Below, in pieces: positions 10,673 to 46,573 of a stretch of 64,000 nt of DNA (its first letter is position 1; the number at the start of each line of letters is the position of its first letter). This DNA is from Candidatus Adiutrix sp. (GTDB taxonomy: Bacteria; Desulfobacterota; Desulfarculia; Adiutricales; Adiutricaceae). The position numbers were made by a program, and so were the translations under genes. The notes beneath the pieces were generated by a model, which did not search any database, was not told the origin of the DNA, and saw only the letters and a list, made by a program, of their open reading frames with translations. Location of the stretch: contig JAISFR010000081.1 of assembly GCA_031263565.1 (NCBI GenBank), forward strand, positions 1 through 64,000, in the 5' to 3' direction.

Positions 10673-10686
10673 GGGTTCCGGGAGCG

Positions 10687-10824
10687 ATTCTCAAAGTAGC
10701 TTCCCATCTTCAAGTGGCCTGGTCGCAGCCGGGCAAAAAGGGCGATTTTTGCCCGGCAGGGGACGGATTGGCCGCCAAAACCGGTCGCTCCGCTCCGTCG
10801 CCCTCTCCGGGGCGACCGGCTATC
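10687..10824 (+). repeat. Dispersed double-hairpin intergenic repeat, copy 1
   Basis: It opens with ATTCTCAAAGTAG (10687-10699). Hairpin A pairs GCCGGGCAAAAA (10728-10739) with 10746-10757. Hairpin B pairs CCGGTCGC (10781-10788) with GCGACCGG (10812-10819). The sequence is nearly identical to copies at 38064 (inverted and complete) and 40304. The right terminal inverted repeat is missing here. It is non-coding. Confidence 0.8.
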
Positions 10825-10827
10825 CCT

Positions 10828-35678: not shown

Positions 35679-35711
35679 CAGGCGATTCGTCTTGACGCCC
35701 TGACGCGGACT

Positions 35712-36179
35712 TTAATCGTCGTCCTCGTCGTCGTAATATTCGTCGTCGTCCTCGTCGTATTCCTCGTCGTTCTCGTCGAGTTTGTCGTCGCCGAATTCAT
35801 CATCAATGAATTCGTCGTATTCCTCGCGAGTCATCAGGTCGTCATATTCGGTCATGGAATTCATTTCCATCCGTATCAGCCAGCCCTCTTCGTAAGGGTC
35901 TTCCAAAATGGCTTCCGGAGCGTCAACTATATCCTCGTTGACGGCTGTCACTTCGCCGCTGACCGGGGCCAGAAGCCGCAGTCCGGTGCCGCTGCCGACG
36001 GACACGCGGCCGAAGGGTTCGTCCTTGGAGAATTCGTCGCCTTCCGCCGGGAGGCGGATCTTGGTCAGTTCGTCAAAATCCTCCAGAGCTTCGTCAGTCA
36101 GGCCGATGGTGGCCTGATGGTCGTCTTCCAGACGTATCCAGAGCTTTTCGGCGGAATACCTAAGTACGTGCAGATCCAA
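35712..36179 (-). CDS. GcvH-like protein without lipoyl lysine, with acidic tail
   Basis: A 155-residue protein. Residues 1-107 match glycine-cleavage H protein (WIRLEDDHQATIGLTDEAL, APVSGEVTAVNEDI, DPYEEGWLI). Aligned without gaps to the usual ESVKAxxxxYAPVSG, the lipoylated lysine is replaced by Gly64 (VSVGSGTG), so it cannot carry lipoate in the known way. Residues 111-155 form a tail with 29 Asp/Glu in 45 residues. TTG start with AAGGAGG six bases upstream. It lies 84 bases after lgt on the same strand. No gcvT, gcvP or lipoate ligase genes are near. Confidence 0.8.
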   Translation of the reverse strand: MDLHVLRYSAEKLWIRLEDDHQATIGLTDEALEDFDELTKIRLPAEGDEFSKDEPFGRVSVGSGTGLRLLAPVSGEVTAVNEDIVDAPEAILEDPYEEGWLIRMEMNSMTEYDDLMTREEYDEFIDDEFGDDKLDENDEEYDEDDDEYYDDEDDD

Positions 36180-38048: not shown

Positions 38049-38063
38049 GTTTGCCGGGCAGCG

Positions 38064-38227
38064 ATTCTCAAAGTAGGCCCGATTATCAAAATAGCCGGTC
38101 GCCCCGGAGAGGGCGACGGAGCGGAGCGACTGGTCAGGTCGGCCAATCAATCCCCTGCCGGGCAAAAATCGCACTTTTTGCCCGGCTACGACCAGAGCAC
38201 TTGAAGATGGAAAGCTACTTTGAGAAT
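38064..38227 (-). repeat. Dispersed double-hairpin repeat, copy 2 (complete, with terminal inverted repeats)
   Basis: Terminal 13-bp inverted repeats ATTCTCAAAGTAG (38064-38076) and its complement (38215-38227) bound a 164-bp element lying opposite to copies 1 and 3. Hairpin A: GCCGGGCAAAAA (38157-38168) with 38175-38186. Hairpin B: GGTCGCCCC (from 38097) region with the GGAGCGACTGG region. It is non-coding and starts 15 bases after the SPOR gene stop. The architecture resembles a MITE. Confidence 0.8.
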
Positions 38228-38244
38228 TACTGTTTGCCGGGCTC

Positions 38245-40188: not shown

Positions 40189-40303
40189 TATAAGCCGCTC
40201 CTCTGATTCAGGTTGATGGGATCGAAACCGAAAATAACCTACTGTTGCCCATAATATAACTGTCTTGAAAATAAATTGCAAGTCGATCTTCCGACCGGGC
40301 GCA

Positions 40304-40453
40304 ATTCTAAAAGTAGCTTTCCATCTTCAAGTGCTCTGGTCGTAGCCGGGCAAAAAGGGCGATTTTTGCCCGGCAGGGGACGGATTGGCCGACCCGACCG
40401 GTCGCTCCGCTCCGTCGCCCTCTCCGGGGCGATCTGCTATTTTTAATCGGCCA
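40304..40453 (+). repeat. Dispersed double-hairpin intergenic repeat, copy 3
   Basis: It has the same order as copy 1: ATTCTAAAAGTAG (one change), hairpin A from 40345, hairpin B from 40398, then CTATTTTTAATCGG. The last part matches the end of complete copy 2 and overlaps the final codons and TAA stop (40443-40445) of the reverse-strand alpha-2-macroglobulin gene. Confidence 0.8.
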
Positions 40454-43400
40454 CTTCCAGGCTTTGGCCGGTGCCGCGGCCGAAGGTTTCGGGGGCGTAC
40501 ATCTCTTCGGCCTGGGGGCCGGGGGTCAGGTAGACGCCGCTGGTGACCGCCCGGGCCAGGTAAGAATAGCTGTAGACCCCGGCCTCGAGGCGGTCGGCGT
40601 AGACGGCCACCCGGTCGGGCCAGATTTCCTGGTGCCGGTACCAGTGGAGGCGGCGCTCGTCTTCATTTTCGCCGGCGGGCAGGTTCAGGAGGCTGAGGTC
40701 AGCCTCGGCCAGGTTGAAGTTGACGGGCTCCAGGCCGGCCGGCACCCGGTCCATCAGCACCACGTTATGGCGCGGGGCGGGGACCATCATGGTCACCGAA
40801 ACCCGAACCACGTCGCCGCGCTTGAAACGCAGGGCCCCGGCCGGCCCGGCTTCGGGCGAGACCACTTCAAAGGAGCGGGCGAGCCTGAAGCCGCCGCTGG
40901 AGGCCGCCGAAAGATCGGGCGCCAGGGGGGCGGTTCTGATCTTCAGGGCGGCCCAGGCCTGGCCCTGGCCCTGGACCTCGTAGCTGACGGACGGGCTTTC
41001 GGCGGGGATGGCCGAAAGCGGGGCCTGGCCGAGGGCCGGCCGGTCGCTGAAAGATTTAAAGCGGGCCTGGGCCAGGAGGCTCTCGCCCAAAAGGGCTTTG
41101 ACGTCCAGGTCGGGGTTTTCGGGCTCGGCCGTTTTGACGTAGTCGGAGAGGGCGGCCAGGGCCAAGGCGTTGTTCTGGGTGGTCCCGAAGTGGCCGCCGC
41201 GGCTGGCCGAAACCAGCCAGCGGACCAGGGCCGGGAGGAGGTCGTGCCGGGGCGCGGTCTGGCAGAGGACGCTGAGGGCCAGGGCTGAAGTGCGGACCGA
41301 GCTGGACCAGATTTCGGGCGCGCCCTCCGCCGGTTCCACGAACTGCGCTTCACCGGCGCTCACCTGTAAATGCCGGTCCAAAAGCGGAATCAGGGCCGCC
41401 AGACGGAGATCCCGGTTCTGGCCCTGGGGCAGGAAAGCCACGGCCCGGATGAGGTTGGCCAGTTCAAAGAGGCCCAGTTTTTCCCGATCCTGATAGAGCA
41501 GTTCAATATAGGCGGCCACATTTTCGCCGGAACGGCCGAGCATGGCCAGGGCGTAGCTTTTGGCTTCCCGCACGGCCTCTGGCGAATACCAGGCGGGGAA
41601 GGACCGGCTTTCGCCGCCCAAAGCCTCTTTCAGGAAGTCGGCGATGCGGCCGGGCAGGGCCGGGTCGGGCAGTTCAAAGCCGTCATCCCGGGCCGAGAGC
41701 AGAAAGTCCAGCACATAGGCCGAAAGATAGACCGAGCGGCTTGACCAGTCATAGGTTTCGGGCCAGAAATTGTAGCCGCCGCCCTGTTCCCACCGCAAGA
41801 GGCGAGCCAGTTGCGACTGCACGTCGCGCCGGGCCTGTTCCTCTTTTTCGGCGGTCCCGTTCAGGCGCTCTTTAAGCCGCAGCCAGACCAGGCTGGCGTA
41901 GGCCTTGGAGACGGACTGTTCCACGCAGCCGTGGGGGTAGGCCGCCAACCAGTCAAAGGGCTCGGTCAGCACCCCCGCCAGGCTGGGCGACAGGGCCAGT
42001 TCCAGGCCGCCCCGGCCGGGGTCCAGCCCTTCGGCCAGGGCCAGAGAGGCCGTGGCCTGGCCGGGGAGGAGGCGTTCATAAGAGGCCTGGGTGCTCAGGG
42101 GATTGGGCGGGGAGACCGGGAGGACGTATTCCACGCTGTCGCGGTCCGGCCCCAGAGTCACGCTGAAGAGAAACCTGGCTTCTCCGGCGGAGCCGGCCTT
42201 GACCTTGAAGTGAAGTTCCTGGCTTTGGTCCGGGCCGAGGGTCACGGTTTTGGCGGCCGAATCGTTGACCAGGCTGAAATTGTCGCCTTCCAGCCTGACG
42301 GCGGCCTCCCCGGAGATCCGGCCCCGGTTGCTGAGAACCACGGCCGCCTGGAATTCATCGCCGACGCCGGCATAGCCGGGCAGGGCCGAGCGGACCAGGA
42401 GATCGCGGCTGACCAGAACCGAATTCTGCCCGGTGCCGGTTTTTCGCCCGGGCCCGGTGGCCACGGCGAAAATTTTGAAGGTGGTCAGGTTTTCAGGCAT
42501 TTTGACCTTGACTCTGGCCCGGCCGCTCTGGTCCAGAGCGACCCGGGGCTCGAAGTGGGCCAGGGCGGCGAAGAGCCGCCGTATTCCGTCGTCGCTGCGG
42601 TCCTTCATCAGGGCGGCCGCCTCCATCAGCCCGCCGCCTCCGCCGGGGTTGTCGCCTTTGCTGCCCCAGTTCTGGCGGCCGATGAGGCTGACGAGGTTGT
42701 CGGCGGTCTGAACCATCAGGGGCCGGTCGCGGTGATAGAGGGTCTCCGGATGGTAGGCGGCTTCTCCGCCCAATTGCAGCACGGCGGCATCGGCCACGAT
42801 GAGGGCCACCTCAGCCCCGGTCGCCGGCTGACCATAGTAATCGACGACTTCCAGGTCCACTTCCACTTCGCCGCCCGGCCCGACTTCCTTCTGATCGGGG
42901 GTGACCCTGACCGTAAAGAGGTCTTTTCGGCTGGGGACCTTCAGTTCGGTGTAGCCCAGGCGAATGGCGGGCTTGCCGAAATCCAGGCCGGCTTCGTCGA
43001 GTTTGTCGGCGATGCGGCCCCTGACCAGGAGCACCGAGACGAAGATATTGGGGCTGTCGTCGTCAGTGACCGGTATTTCCAGAACGGGGGTCTGGCTCGT
43101 GATCTCAAAGACCCGGGAGCTGCGCACCCCGGCCCGCTCCACGGTCAAAAGGCCCTGCCCCCGGTCAAAGGGGCTCTGGACCATGATCCGGGCCTGGTCG
43201 CCCGCTTGGTAGGAGTCGCGGTCGGCCACCAGGGTCAGGCGGTCGTCATTGCCCATGAACCAGCCCACCGGCCCGGATCCGCTGACGTAGAAGTCGCAGC
43301 TGGCCTGGTTGACCCGGCCCTGCTCGTCTTGCAGTTCGGCCAGAACCCAGTAATGGCCGGGCTTTTCCGGCGTGAACTCCACTTCGGCCGGAAGATCGGC

Positions 43401-46328
43401 GCTGCTCACGGTGCGGGTTTCTATTTTTTCATCCAGCATGCGGGAGACGTACTCGTAAGCCGAGCCGGGCGATTTGCGGCGGACGTTCTGCCAGACGCGG
43501 CGGTGAAGGGTCAGGCTGACCGGCCGGCCGCTGATCAGGCGTCCCTCCCGGTCGGCGGCAATGAGTTTCAGCCGATAGGGCCGCCCGGCTTCGGTCACGT
43601 ATTGGTCCCGATAGAGACCGGCGTAGATTTCGGCCGGGTGGACCAGGAAAGAGGCCGAAGTGGAAACTGTGCGTTGATCGACATCGGTGACGGTGACGAA
43701 GCTCTGATAGTTTCTGGGCCGGGGCCGCTGTTCCGGGGTCGGGCTCAGGTTCAGCCGGAATTTCAACAGGCCCCCGGCGTCCAGCCGGACTTCGTCGGAA
43801 GCCACGGTGACCGACGGTTCGCTGCGGTCATAGCCGTCGTCCCGGTCCTCGTCGGCCGCTTCGAAGCGGTTGATGACGCTGTATTGGGAAAAATCGCCGG
43901 GCAGGCTGAACTCGGCCGGCGAGGCGCTGACGCTGTAGCGGACGGGCTGCCCGGCAACCGGGGCGCCGTAATGATAGCCGGCTTCGGCCCGGATTTCGAC
44001 GGTCTGGCCGGCCAGCGGATTCTGGGGCGGATCTGTCATCTTGATTTCAAAGGCCGGCGGCCGATAGGTCATGACCATGAAGCTGCCCAGTTCCGGGAGG
44101 TCCGTCTGGCCGGGGCGGCCGGCCCTGACCGACCAGTAGCCCAAGGCGGCGTTCCGGGGAATGGGCAGTTCATGGCTGAGGGTTCCCAGCGGCCCGGTTT
44201 TCAGAAGACGCCGCTCCACCAGTTCGTCGGCGCCGTCGCGGATCTCCACTTCCAGATCCTGGCCGGCCAGATCCCGCAGTTGATCGCCCTGGCGCTGGCG
44301 GGCGATGATCTTGAATTTGGCGGTCTCGCCTGGTTTGTAGAGGGGCAGGGAATTTAAGAGCCAACTGCTCTGGTCTTCGTCCCGGCCCAGGGGATCGCCG
44401 GTGTTCAGATCCCAGCGCCAGGTTTCCAGGCCGTCGTTCCAGTTGACGTTCCACAGGGACATCTGGCCCTCGGCCCGGGCCACCACAAAGAGGTTGGGGC
44501 GGTCAGGCCCCGCTTCCCTGAGAATTTCCAGGGCCCCGGGCAGTTCGGCCAGGCCCTGGGCGTCGCTTTGGCCGCTCCACAAAAGGCGGCCGCTCTGGTC
44601 GCGCAAGTCCAGGGCCACCCCCGCCCAGGACTGCCCCCGGCCCAGGTGGCTGGTCCAGATCAGAGAGGATTCCGGCCCCATTTTGACGGCCAGGCCGATG
44701 TCCGAGACCTGGATCAGGGCATAGGTGTGATCCTGGTATTCCTTGGCGTTTTCCCGGGCGGGGACGGTCCAGGCTGAGCGGAGATAGAGAAGCCGGCCGC
44801 TGAGGTCGTCGCCGTAAATTTTTTTAAGGTCCAGGGTCAGGGGCGTGCGGCCGTGGCGGGCGCCGTCGGGGACGGCCAGGGTCAGAACTTCCGGCTTGAG
44901 GTTGGCCAGGGTTTTTTCGGCGGTGCTGAGATCGCCGAAATAATCCGGGGAAAAATCGGCCTCGGCCAGGAAGCCGATGGCCTGTTCAGCCGTGAGGGAA
45001 TAGGCTTCCACCCGGGCTTCCCTGATGTTGCCGGCCCAGAGACGCACCTTGGCCTCAGAGCCGGTTTCCAGCAGCCCGTAGCCGTCGCGCAGGCGCAGAA
45101 AGGTTTCATATTCGCCGGTGTGGAATTTGTGGACAAAATCGCCGCCCAGGGTCTGGCCGAAGATGTCCCGTGCCGAGCCGTCGATGGTCAGGCGGTAGTC
45201 GGTGTCGGCTTTCAGGCCGCCTGGAAGATAGAGGTAGTCCCGAAAATCGTCGATCACTTCATCGCCGGTCTCTTCGGCCGCCGGGTCGGCCCCGGCGGGC
45301 GGCTCTTCTTTTTCGGGGTTGAACTGCCTGACCAGGGGCGTCAGGTCATAATCATTGTCGATCTTGATGAGGCGAACCAGTTCCGAGATTTTGACCCGGT
45401 TGGTGAAATGGAGATAAAGGCCGCGGTCGGGGTCCACTTTTTCTTCATCGACAGAGCCCACGGTGACGCGCAGCGGGCCGTAGGTCCGGCCTTCGGCCAG
45501 GGTCAGCGGCGGGGCGGGGAGCGGGCCGGCCAGGGAGGCCGCGCCTTCTTCCACAGTTAATTGATAGGGGCGGTCGGGGGGCAATTTTCCCCGGGCGGTA
45601 AAGGTCAGAAAGTTGGGATCGTGGCCGGGGACAGTCTCGACCCGGGCCGGGATCTTCTGTTCCCCGCCGGAATCGCTCCATTTGAAAAAAGCTTTTTTCC
45701 CCAAGCTTTCCAAGTCGGGGTTCTGGTTGAAAAGCACCCGCCAGACCGGGGTCAGAGCTTCGTCGATATCCCGGGGGGAGACATTGCTCTGGTATCGGCT
45801 GAGAGGGGCCAGGAGCGGCAGTTTGACCTTGATTTCCGCACCCTGATCCAGGCGGGCGCCGGAAAGGGCCTTCAGGTTTTCGGGCTTCAGTCGGGCCGTC
45901 AATTCCAGGCTGCCGGTCAGAGGCTCTTTGAAAACATAGGCCAGGGTGTATTGATTGAGCCAAAGGGCTTGCCCCTCCATCGGCGGGTCCAGGCTCAGGG
46001 CTCCTTCGGGCACGTTCCGGTAGTCGCCGAGGGCCGCCATGGGCTGATTGAACATGGCCGCCACCTGGTTCAGTTTTTTGAGTTCGCCTGAGGGGCCGAA
46101 ACGCAAAAGGCTCAGGGCCTGGCCTTCCGGCCCGGGCGCGCCCTGGGCCCGGGCTTCCGGGCTCCCGACCTCCGCCTGGCGGCCGGCGGCCTGATCAGCG
46201 CTTTCAGCGGGCGCGGGCCGGCTGACGGCCGCCGCTTCGGGCTTTTTCTCTTCTTGACAGGCGGGATTCAGACATATAGCCAGAGCCAGCAGGAAAAACC
46301 GGACCAGGCGGAAAGAGTTTTTTTTCAT
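40443..46328 (-). CDS. Bacterial alpha-2-macroglobulin lipoprotein
   Basis: A 1961-residue periplasmic protease trap. A signal peptide ends at a lipobox-like LNPAC (Cys24), so it is lipid-anchored. Successive macroglobulin-like beta domains fill residues 90-1150, including MG-type segments (YKPGETAKFKIIARQ, SYQAGDQARIMVQSPF). The thioester motif is YPHGCVEQS near residue 1465, where Cys and Gln would form the internal thioester, followed by the alpha-helical thioester domain and a receptor-like end. It resembles E. coli YfhM, but the usual neighbour pbpC is absent. ATG 46328 is preferred to 46334 because GGGAG is then seven bases away. The stop lies inside the dispersed repeat. Confidence 0.92.
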   Translation of the reverse strand: MKKNSFRLVRFFLLALAICLNPACQEEKKPEAAAVSRPAPAESADQAAGRQAEVGSPEARAQGAPGPEGQALSLLRFGPSGELKKLNQVAAMFNQPMAALGDYRNVPEGALSLDPPMEGQALWLNQYTLAYVFKEPLTGSLELTARLKPENLKALSGARLDQGAEIKVKLPLLAPLSRYQSNVSPRDIDEALTPVWRVLFNQNPDLESLGKKAFFKWSDSGGEQKIPARVETVPGHDPNFLTFTARGKLPPDRPYQLTVEEGAASLAGPLPAPPLTLAEGRTYGPLRVTVGSVDEEKVDPDRGLYLHFTNRVKISELVRLIKIDNDYDLTPLVRQFNPEKEEPPAGADPAAEETGDEVIDDFRDYLYLPGGLKADTDYRLTIDGSARDIFGQTLGGDFVHKFHTGEYETFLRLRDGYGLLETGSEAKVRLWAGNIREARVEAYSLTAEQAIGFLAEADFSPDYFGDLSTAEKTLANLKPEVLTLAVPDGARHGRTPLTLDLKKIYGDDLSGRLLYLRSAWTVPARENAKEYQDHTYALIQVSDIGLAVKMGPESSLIWTSHLGRGQSWAGVALDLRDQSGRLLWSGQSDAQGLAELPGALEILREAGPDRPNLFVVARAEGQMSLWNVNWNDGLETWRWDLNTGDPLGRDEDQSSWLLNSLPLYKPGETAKFKIIARQRQGDQLRDLAGQDLEVEIRDGADELVERRLLKTGPLGTLSHELPIPRNAALGYWSVRAGRPGQTDLPELGSFMVMTYRPPAFEIKMTDPPQNPLAGQTVEIRAEAGYHYGAPVAGQPVRYSVSASPAEFSLPGDFSQYSVINRFEAADEDRDDGYDRSEPSVTVASDEVRLDAGGLLKFRLNLSPTPEQRPRPRNYQSFVTVTDVDQRTVSTSASFLVHPAEIYAGLYRDQYVTEAGRPYRLKLIAADREGRLISGRPVSLTLHRRVWQNVRRKSPGSAYEYVSRMLDEKIETRTVSSADLPAEVEFTPEKPGHYWVLAELQDEQGRVNQASCDFYVSGSGPVGWFMGNDDRLTLVADRDSYQAGDQARIMVQSPFDRGQGLLTVERAGVRSSRVFEITSQTPVLEIPVTDDDSPNIFVSVLLVRGRIADKLDEAGLDFGKPAIRLGYTELKVPSRKDLFTVRVTPDQKEVGPGGEVEVDLEVVDYYGQPATGAEVALIVADAAVLQLGGEAAYHPETLYHRDRPLMVQTADNLVSLIGRQNWGSKGDNPGGGGGLMEAAALMKDRSDDGIRRLFAALAHFEPRVALDQSGRARVKVKMPENLTTFKIFAVATGPGRKTGTGQNSVLVSRDLLVRSALPGYAGVGDEFQAAVVLSNRGRISGEAAVRLEGDNFSLVNDSAAKTVTLGPDQSQELHFKVKAGSAGEARFLFSVTLGPDRDSVEYVLPVSPPNPLSTQASYERLLPGQATASLALAEGLDPGRGGLELALSPSLAGVLTEPFDWLAAYPHGCVEQSVSKAYASLVWLRLKERLNGTAEKEEQARRDVQSQLARLLRWEQGGGYNFWPETYDWSSRSVYLSAYVLDFLLSARDDGFELPDPALPGRIADFLKEALGGESRSFPAWYSPEAVREAKSYALAMLGRSGENVAAYIELLYQDREKLGLFELANLIRAVAFLPQGQNRDLRLAALIPLLDRHLQVSAGEAQFVEPAEGAPEIWSSSVRTSALALSVLCQTAPRHDLLPALVRWLVSASRGGHFGTTQNNALALAALSDYVKTAEPENPDLDVKALLGESLLAQARFKSFSDRPALGQAPLSAIPAESPSVSYEVQGQGQAWAALKIRTAPLAPDLSAASSGGFRLARSFEVVSPEAGPAGALRFKRGDVVRVSVTMMVPAPRHNVVLMDRVPAGLEPVNFNLAEADLSLLNLPAGENEDERRLHWYRHQEIWPDRVAVYADRLEAGVYSYSYLARAVTSGVYLTPGPQAEEMYAPETFGRGTGQSLEVAD

Positions 46329-46573
46329 TACCATGCTCCCTTTGTCGACACCTTAGGAAAACCAATGGGGCATCGACATGGTTATTATTTCAGGAGCCTG
46401 TCGGAGTATGAATTTTGCATAAGATAACATATTGTAATAAAAGGATAAATTTTATTGAGAAAATTCTCGACAATAATGATTTCAATAGCTTATCTCATAC
46501 CCCGAGCAGGCTCCCAAGTCAGGATATAATAAATCAGGTTCTATTGCAAGGGAAGCAAATTGCTTCCAGTAAA
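46329..46573. other. AT-rich spacer upstream of alpha-2-macroglobulin
   Basis: It contains a 12-bp palindrome GAGAAAATTCTC (46457-46468) and several AT-rich -10-like strings on the reverse strand. I cannot assign a single promoter with confidence. Confidence 0.3.

Follow-up and report, generated by a model that had tools for sequence, protein, structure and literature searches.

The 64,000-nt window from Candidatus Adiutrix sp. analyzed here (the whole stretch of DNA under study, which is contig 98 of a 145-contig host assembly, a MAG of 2.97 Mb that is 94.6% complete) contains three copies of a repeat with two hairpins, raising the question of whether they are remnants of a mobile element, REP sequences or ordinary terminators, and of what could have moved them. 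An earlier note had described three copies sharing two hairpins, and this description held: the repeat was found at the three places named there, copies 1 and 3 being 91% identical across 146 nt, and copy 2, in inverted orientation, matching the other two at 91-94% identity over 137-141 nt. The evidence gathered from the window, from the host genome and from its relatives makes it very probable that these repeats are a 174-bp non-autonomous cut-and-paste MITE, mobilized in trans by a DDE transposase of a group annotated as 'ISNCY', and now orphaned.

Copy 2 is complete and bounded by terminal inverted repeats (TIRs), as had been proposed, but the limits assigned to it (38064-38227, with 13-bp TIRs) were too narrow, since the TIRs comprise 18 bp and the element 174 bp (Table 1). 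Copies 1 and 3 lack the final 25-30 bp at the hairpin-2 end. The TIR core ATTCTCAAAGTAG was detected at five sites in the window (up to two mismatches), against 0.42 expected. The fold predicted for the 174-nt element was far more stable than those of shuffled sequences, both as RNA (z = -6.5) and as DNA (z = -5.2), and the search for Rfam families in the window detected none except a tRNA.

Table 1. Positions of the repeat copies and their parts in the window, and of the related features in other loci.
Feature	Position	Strand	Description
MITE copy 1, truncated	10682..10826	+	91% identity; ~30 bp missing on the right
Copy 1, left TIR	10682-10699		1 mismatch
Copy 1, hairpin 1	10728-10757		
Copy 1, hairpin 2	10797-10816		
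MITE copy 2, complete 174-bp element	38059..38232	- (consensus orientation)	93-99% identity to dozens of copies; both 18-bp TIRs
Copy 2, left 9-bp target-site duplication	38050..38058	.	TTTGCCGGG; same as 38233-38241
Copy 2, TIR	38059..38076	+	CAGCGATTCTCAAAGTAG; matches the family TIR exactly
Copy 2, hairpin 2	38098..38117	-	GTCGCCC-TCTCCG-GGGCGAC, then CGGCTATTTT; terminator-like (predicted fold and terminator score)
Copy 2, hairpin 1	38157..38186	-	GCCGGGC-AAAAA...TTTTT-GCCCGGC; 12-bp stem in predicted fold
Copy 2, second TIR	38215..38232	-	CAGTAATTCTCAAAGTAG; 1 mismatch to the family TIR
Copy 2, right 9-bp target-site duplication	38233..38241	.	TTTGCCGGG; same as 38050-38058
MITE copy 3, truncated	40299..40450	+	93% identity
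Copy 3, left TIR	40299-40316		3 mismatches
Copy 3, hairpin 1	40345-40374		
Copy 3, hairpin 2	40414-40433		
Autonomous IS	L295:4894-6356		1,463 bp; termini CAGCAATTCTCAAAGTAA and CAGTGATTCTCAAAGTAG; flanked twice by the duplication GTGAACTGC; one 437-aa ORF
Intron-MITE junctions	L423, L424, L425, L429-L435 (G000 C97, C142, C76, C59, C58, C131)		...TTTGAGAATTGC / GTGCGCCG

Copies were gathered from the host genome by searches with the whole element, its core and its TIR, keeping the unique ones, which gave at least 53 distinct copies, 35 of them near full length (87-99% identity to the consensus) and 18 truncated. The full element measures 174 bp and carries at both ends the 18-bp TIR CAGCRATTCTCAAAGTAR, for which 95 sites were found genome-wide, compared with three for a control pattern. 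Among the 35 near-full-length copies, a 9-bp duplication was exact and in register (9/9) in 10, and reached at least 8/9 in register in 15; allowing a one-base shift raised the count to 17 (threshold of at least 8/9, four alignments allowed), the chance rate for such a duplication being about 0.0008 per copy. In seven copies one end is occupied by a group II intron, so that the duplication could not be assessed there. That about half of the full-length copies show no recognizable duplication is as expected if they are old or were later rearranged, transposition being unproven for them. The element has no coding capacity, and the open frames overlapping it are those that arise by chance in GC-rich DNA.

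Strong matches among 60 related genomes came from members of the same genus only, and a TIR search of 37 genomes of the family (up to one mismatch) gave many sites only in the host and in Smac51, a complete genome of the same genus (CP026657.1, G003) that carries a homologous MITE family, with 183 TIR sites against five for the control. The elements of both genomes align over their whole length, with ends that are usually GTAG on one side and GTAA on the other; most of the Smac51 elements checked (n = 48) measured 173-176 bp, and a perfect 9- or 10-bp duplication flanked 20 of them. The copy number and the duplications in the two genomes, along with the matching autonomous element described below, support the proposal of the earlier note that the repeat is a mobilized, MITE-like element. 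The exact 28-base left-end pattern gave no match across the genome contigs database. Two longer versions of the MITE, each with a perfect 9-bp duplication around it, were also observed in Smac51 (L183:4165-4432, 268 bp, and L187:4176-4445, 270 bp); the additional length, about 95 bp and GC-rich, lies between the hairpins.

A search with the 18-mer TIR over 257 Gb of genomes returned 92 stretches, mostly from Smac51. One of the 25 stretches from other sources, belonging to a Spirochaeta sp. MAG (L295), was paired, at 1,463 bp and with a single mismatch, with an inverted copy of the TIR, thus delimiting an autonomous IS (Table 1) whose 437-aa protein is a DDE transposase akin to the 'ISNCY' transposases of cyanobacteria. 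An autonomous element with this exact TIR was found only there, in another phylum, and the MITE, which shares the TIR alone with it, may not be its direct descendant; the transposase with matching ends that the earlier note proposed looking for was found in a Spirochaeta MAG and not in the host or Smac51. The MITE displays short size, multiple non-coding copies, TIRs, a constant 9-bp duplication and an autonomous counterpart with matching ends; it is a new family within a type of element already known. It resembles the bacterial MITEs QMITE2 and MITEAba12, which are likewise short and non-coding, with TIRs, target duplications and a strong fold (PMC10969869); QMITE2 of Coxiella has duplications of 7-9 bp and TIRs of 23-29 bp (PMC10969869). 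It differs from them in its unrelated sequence and parent transposase, and in the REP-like dimer inside it and the intron at its ends.

The alignment of the transposase with its relatives showed the DDE motifs LDGT, LGDD and RWKIEN..LK..GYNLEHNFGHG. Relatives encoded on cyanobacterial plasmids were 43-45% identical, one of them annotated as 'ISNCY family transposase'. Relatives at 34-45% protein identity had TIRs CAGCAATTCTCATTTTGA or CAGCAATTATTGG, with a 9-bp duplication in three of the four checked: the cyanobacterial ones carried CAGCAATTCTCATTTTGA, the Anabaena and Calothrix copies being flanked by 9-bp duplications, and the one from Saccharobesus had TIRs CAGCAATTATTGG and TAAATAAAG. The cyanobacterial 'ISNCY family' ISs (e.g. 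WP_013335080.1, Gloeothece verrucosa plasmid, with a transposase homologous to that of the Spirochaeta IS at 43% identity) share with the MITE the start of the TIR (CAGCAATTCTCA) and, in related copies, the duplication length, whereas they are autonomous, measure 1.77-1.88 kb, and continue their TIR with TTTTGA instead of AAGTAR. The similarity of the Spirochaeta transposase to DDE_Tnp_1 (Pfam, just under the cut-off) and to IS4 (NCBIfam) was weak. The IS4 family (IS10/IS50 subgroups) also generates 9-bp duplications (PMC2266710), but the transposase scored 28.5 bits with the NCBIfam IS4 model, far under the cut-off of 152, and in GRSRWKIENEHNKTLK the Y-(2)-R-(3)-E-(6)-K signature that defines the family (PMC2266710) lacks the Y and has the K displaced, with R(3)E present. 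A search of solved structures with the transposase gave chance matches only. ISs of this group are mostly annotated as 'hypothetical protein' or left unannotated. This links an unannotated bacterial repeat with a specific group of transposases by the 18-bp ends and the 9-bp duplication that they have in common; existing family models hardly recognize the group (scores are far under the cut-off in NCBIfam and just under it in Pfam).

A profile built from nine transposase sequences of the group gave no match in the host genome or in Smac51; a multi-copy IS might be missing from the fragmented host MAG, but the complete Smac51 genome is also without it. Since no such transposase was found in either, the MITEs of both look orphaned. 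The DDE_Tnp_1 genes of the genus were considered as a source and dropped, the pairing of TIRs in the fetched host and Smac51 regions having yielded no element of 1-3 kb with these ends. A third genome of the genus, G001 (2.1 Mb; e.g. loci L381, L384-L392, L400), gave 122 matches to the parent-group profile, fragmentary and riddled with stops, revealing that this transposase group was once present in the genus; most of about a dozen relics examined had CAGYRATTCTYATTTTAG-like ends separated by about 1.4 kb, their TIRs differing slightly from that of the MITE (ATTTTAG instead of AAAGTAG). The same genome contains 47 Y1 transposase fragments, mostly decayed, and is the kind of IS graveyard that genome reduction typically leaves. 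The MITEs would have outlasted their source in two species, with only wrecks kept in a third. In the proposed mechanism, a DDE transposase from an autonomous IS of the unclassified 'ISNCY'-annotated group, with the same TIRs, would have acted in trans on the CAGCRATTCTCAAAGTAR ends, inserting the element and generating the 9-bp target duplications; loss of the source IS would then have ended the amplification, leaving in the host some 50 copies that are probably orphaned, given that the source is not detectable in the host or Smac51, and decaying (18/53 truncated). Surviving insertions lie mostly between genes, and in the host the MITE ends are also where a group II intron has inserted.

This intron was recognized in a repeat flanking several MITEs (RF02003, 109.6 bits, gathering threshold 49), and its reverse transcriptase is partial (TIGR04416, E = 1.3e-24), being cut by the contig end in L424; the repeated flank (CTGGATGAGGCGCACC...) had been taken as the end of another IS, a candidate rejected when it proved to be the intron. 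Searching the host genome with the intron 5' end gave seven copies, all of them joined to a MITE, at the junction ...CTACTTTGAGAATTGC / GTGCGCC, which lies 2 bp inside the MITE terminus and always points outward (four copies at the end with hairpin 2, three at the opposite end); random placement would give this position with a probability of about 1.8e-5 per copy. Toward domain V and the 3' junction the intron copies reach contig ends, as most of them do, or diverge. Class IIC introns are known to target terminators and attC sites (PMC4424553), and insertion beside inverted-repeat motifs is a likeness to them (PMC4424553), the difference being that here the terminal repeat of the MITE is the target in 7/7 copies. 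This target is the most novel part of the system, the REP-like dimer inside the element being unusual too. It seems reasonably likely that the intron is specialized on MITE ends as its homing site, forming a three-layer nest of REP-like dimer, DDE-type MITE and retrotransposing intron in which the dispersed MITE offers many safe intergenic landing sites. If confirmed, MITE ends would join ordinary homing sites, terminators and attC sites as a further class of intron target, and one selfish element would be supplying landing sites to another.

The inner part of the element consists of hairpin 1, with stem GCCGGGCAAAAA/TTTTTGCCCGGC, and hairpin 2, with stem GTCGCCC/GGGCGAC, whose outer feet in the consensus, GTAG and, at hairpin 2, ATAG, resemble a head-to-head REP dimer. 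The stems of G004, a same-genus genome, and of G006 differ by compensating changes, as judged by eye, hairpin 1 is mostly lost in Smac51, and only weak support was obtained for one covarying structure common to all species; conservation of the hairpins is therefore claimed for parts of the genus only. In G004 the core occurs without recognizable TIRs on both sides and partly in tandem, flanking sequence included. The tandem arrays of that genome (L217-L228) have units of about 130-140 bp, with another repeat (GTCAGCCCCTGAAATGGCGGGGCGTAACGAACGGAACAAATGAGCGATGAAACAAAA) interleaved.

These features would suit a REP dimer (REPIN) that owes its mobility to a RAYT tyrosine transposase, with the outer inverted repeats being incidental: GTAG REP dimers are two inverted, head-to-head palindromes with such feet (PMC3733652), REPINs form clusters (PMC3116915), as the core does in G004, and a single intact Y1/RAYT-like gene (225 aa) is present in the host genome. 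We consider this unlikely for the unit that moved, which in the host and Smac51 is bounded by DDE-type TIRs and 9-bp duplications. Tyrosine transposases make no such duplications. Moreover, no MITE or core copy was found beside the RAYT-like genes of the host and G004; near one of the nine Y1 loci of Smac51 (IS200-type) a copy lies at a distance of about 0.4 kb, perhaps by chance, given the approximately 90 copies of that genome. The earlier note was right in calling the element a MITE, but its opposition of MITE to REP sequences needs some qualification in view of the TIR-less, partly tandem core of G004. Both descriptions may apply, with a REP-like dimer travelling inside a MITE and the core possibly being derived from REP sequences; for Anabaena variabilis, REP dimers located within long palindromes have been reported (PMC3733652).

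Two further explanations, both of them very improbable, were weighed against the DDE-mobilized MITE. Hairpin 2 and the CTATTTT following it score as terminator-like, and the copies lie mostly outside long ORFs, as intrinsic terminators or mRNA-stability hairpins grown alike by convergence would; an identity of 91-99% over 140-174 bp that includes the non-hairpin spacer, more than 50 copies, the TIRs, the target duplications and an empty orthologous site contradict such immobile repeats, and terminator activity may be a side effect. The position of the copies was tested after removing the element and its duplication: 10 of the 33 testable copies fell inside ORFs of at least 200 codons, compared with 21.5 expected from random places in the same loci, so that surviving copies favor intergenic DNA. 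The other explanation sees in the MITE a passenger that would owe its spread chiefly to recombination or to the group II intron, in keeping with the position of all seven intron copies at MITE ends and with some tandem copies in Smac51 (L196, L214). Against it, 46 of the 53 host copies are intron-free, no intron was found at the ends of the Smac51 copies examined, and the 9-bp duplications are consistent with a DDE transposase. A group II intron, moreover, moves only itself into a site and leaves its target behind.

For the third copy of the window, three same-genus relatives show an empty site: no element follows their orthologous macroglobulin gene. Such a comparison of empty sites had been proposed in the earlier note. 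This copy overlaps the final codons and stop of an alpha-2-macroglobulin-like ORF (40443-46334, minus strand, 1963 aa), whose GCC-GAT-TAA end looks as if it were derived from the element. Elsewhere in the window, a low-complexity region of CGTCGTC-type repeats (35704-35826) corresponds to an Asp/Glu-rich acidic stretch on the minus strand.
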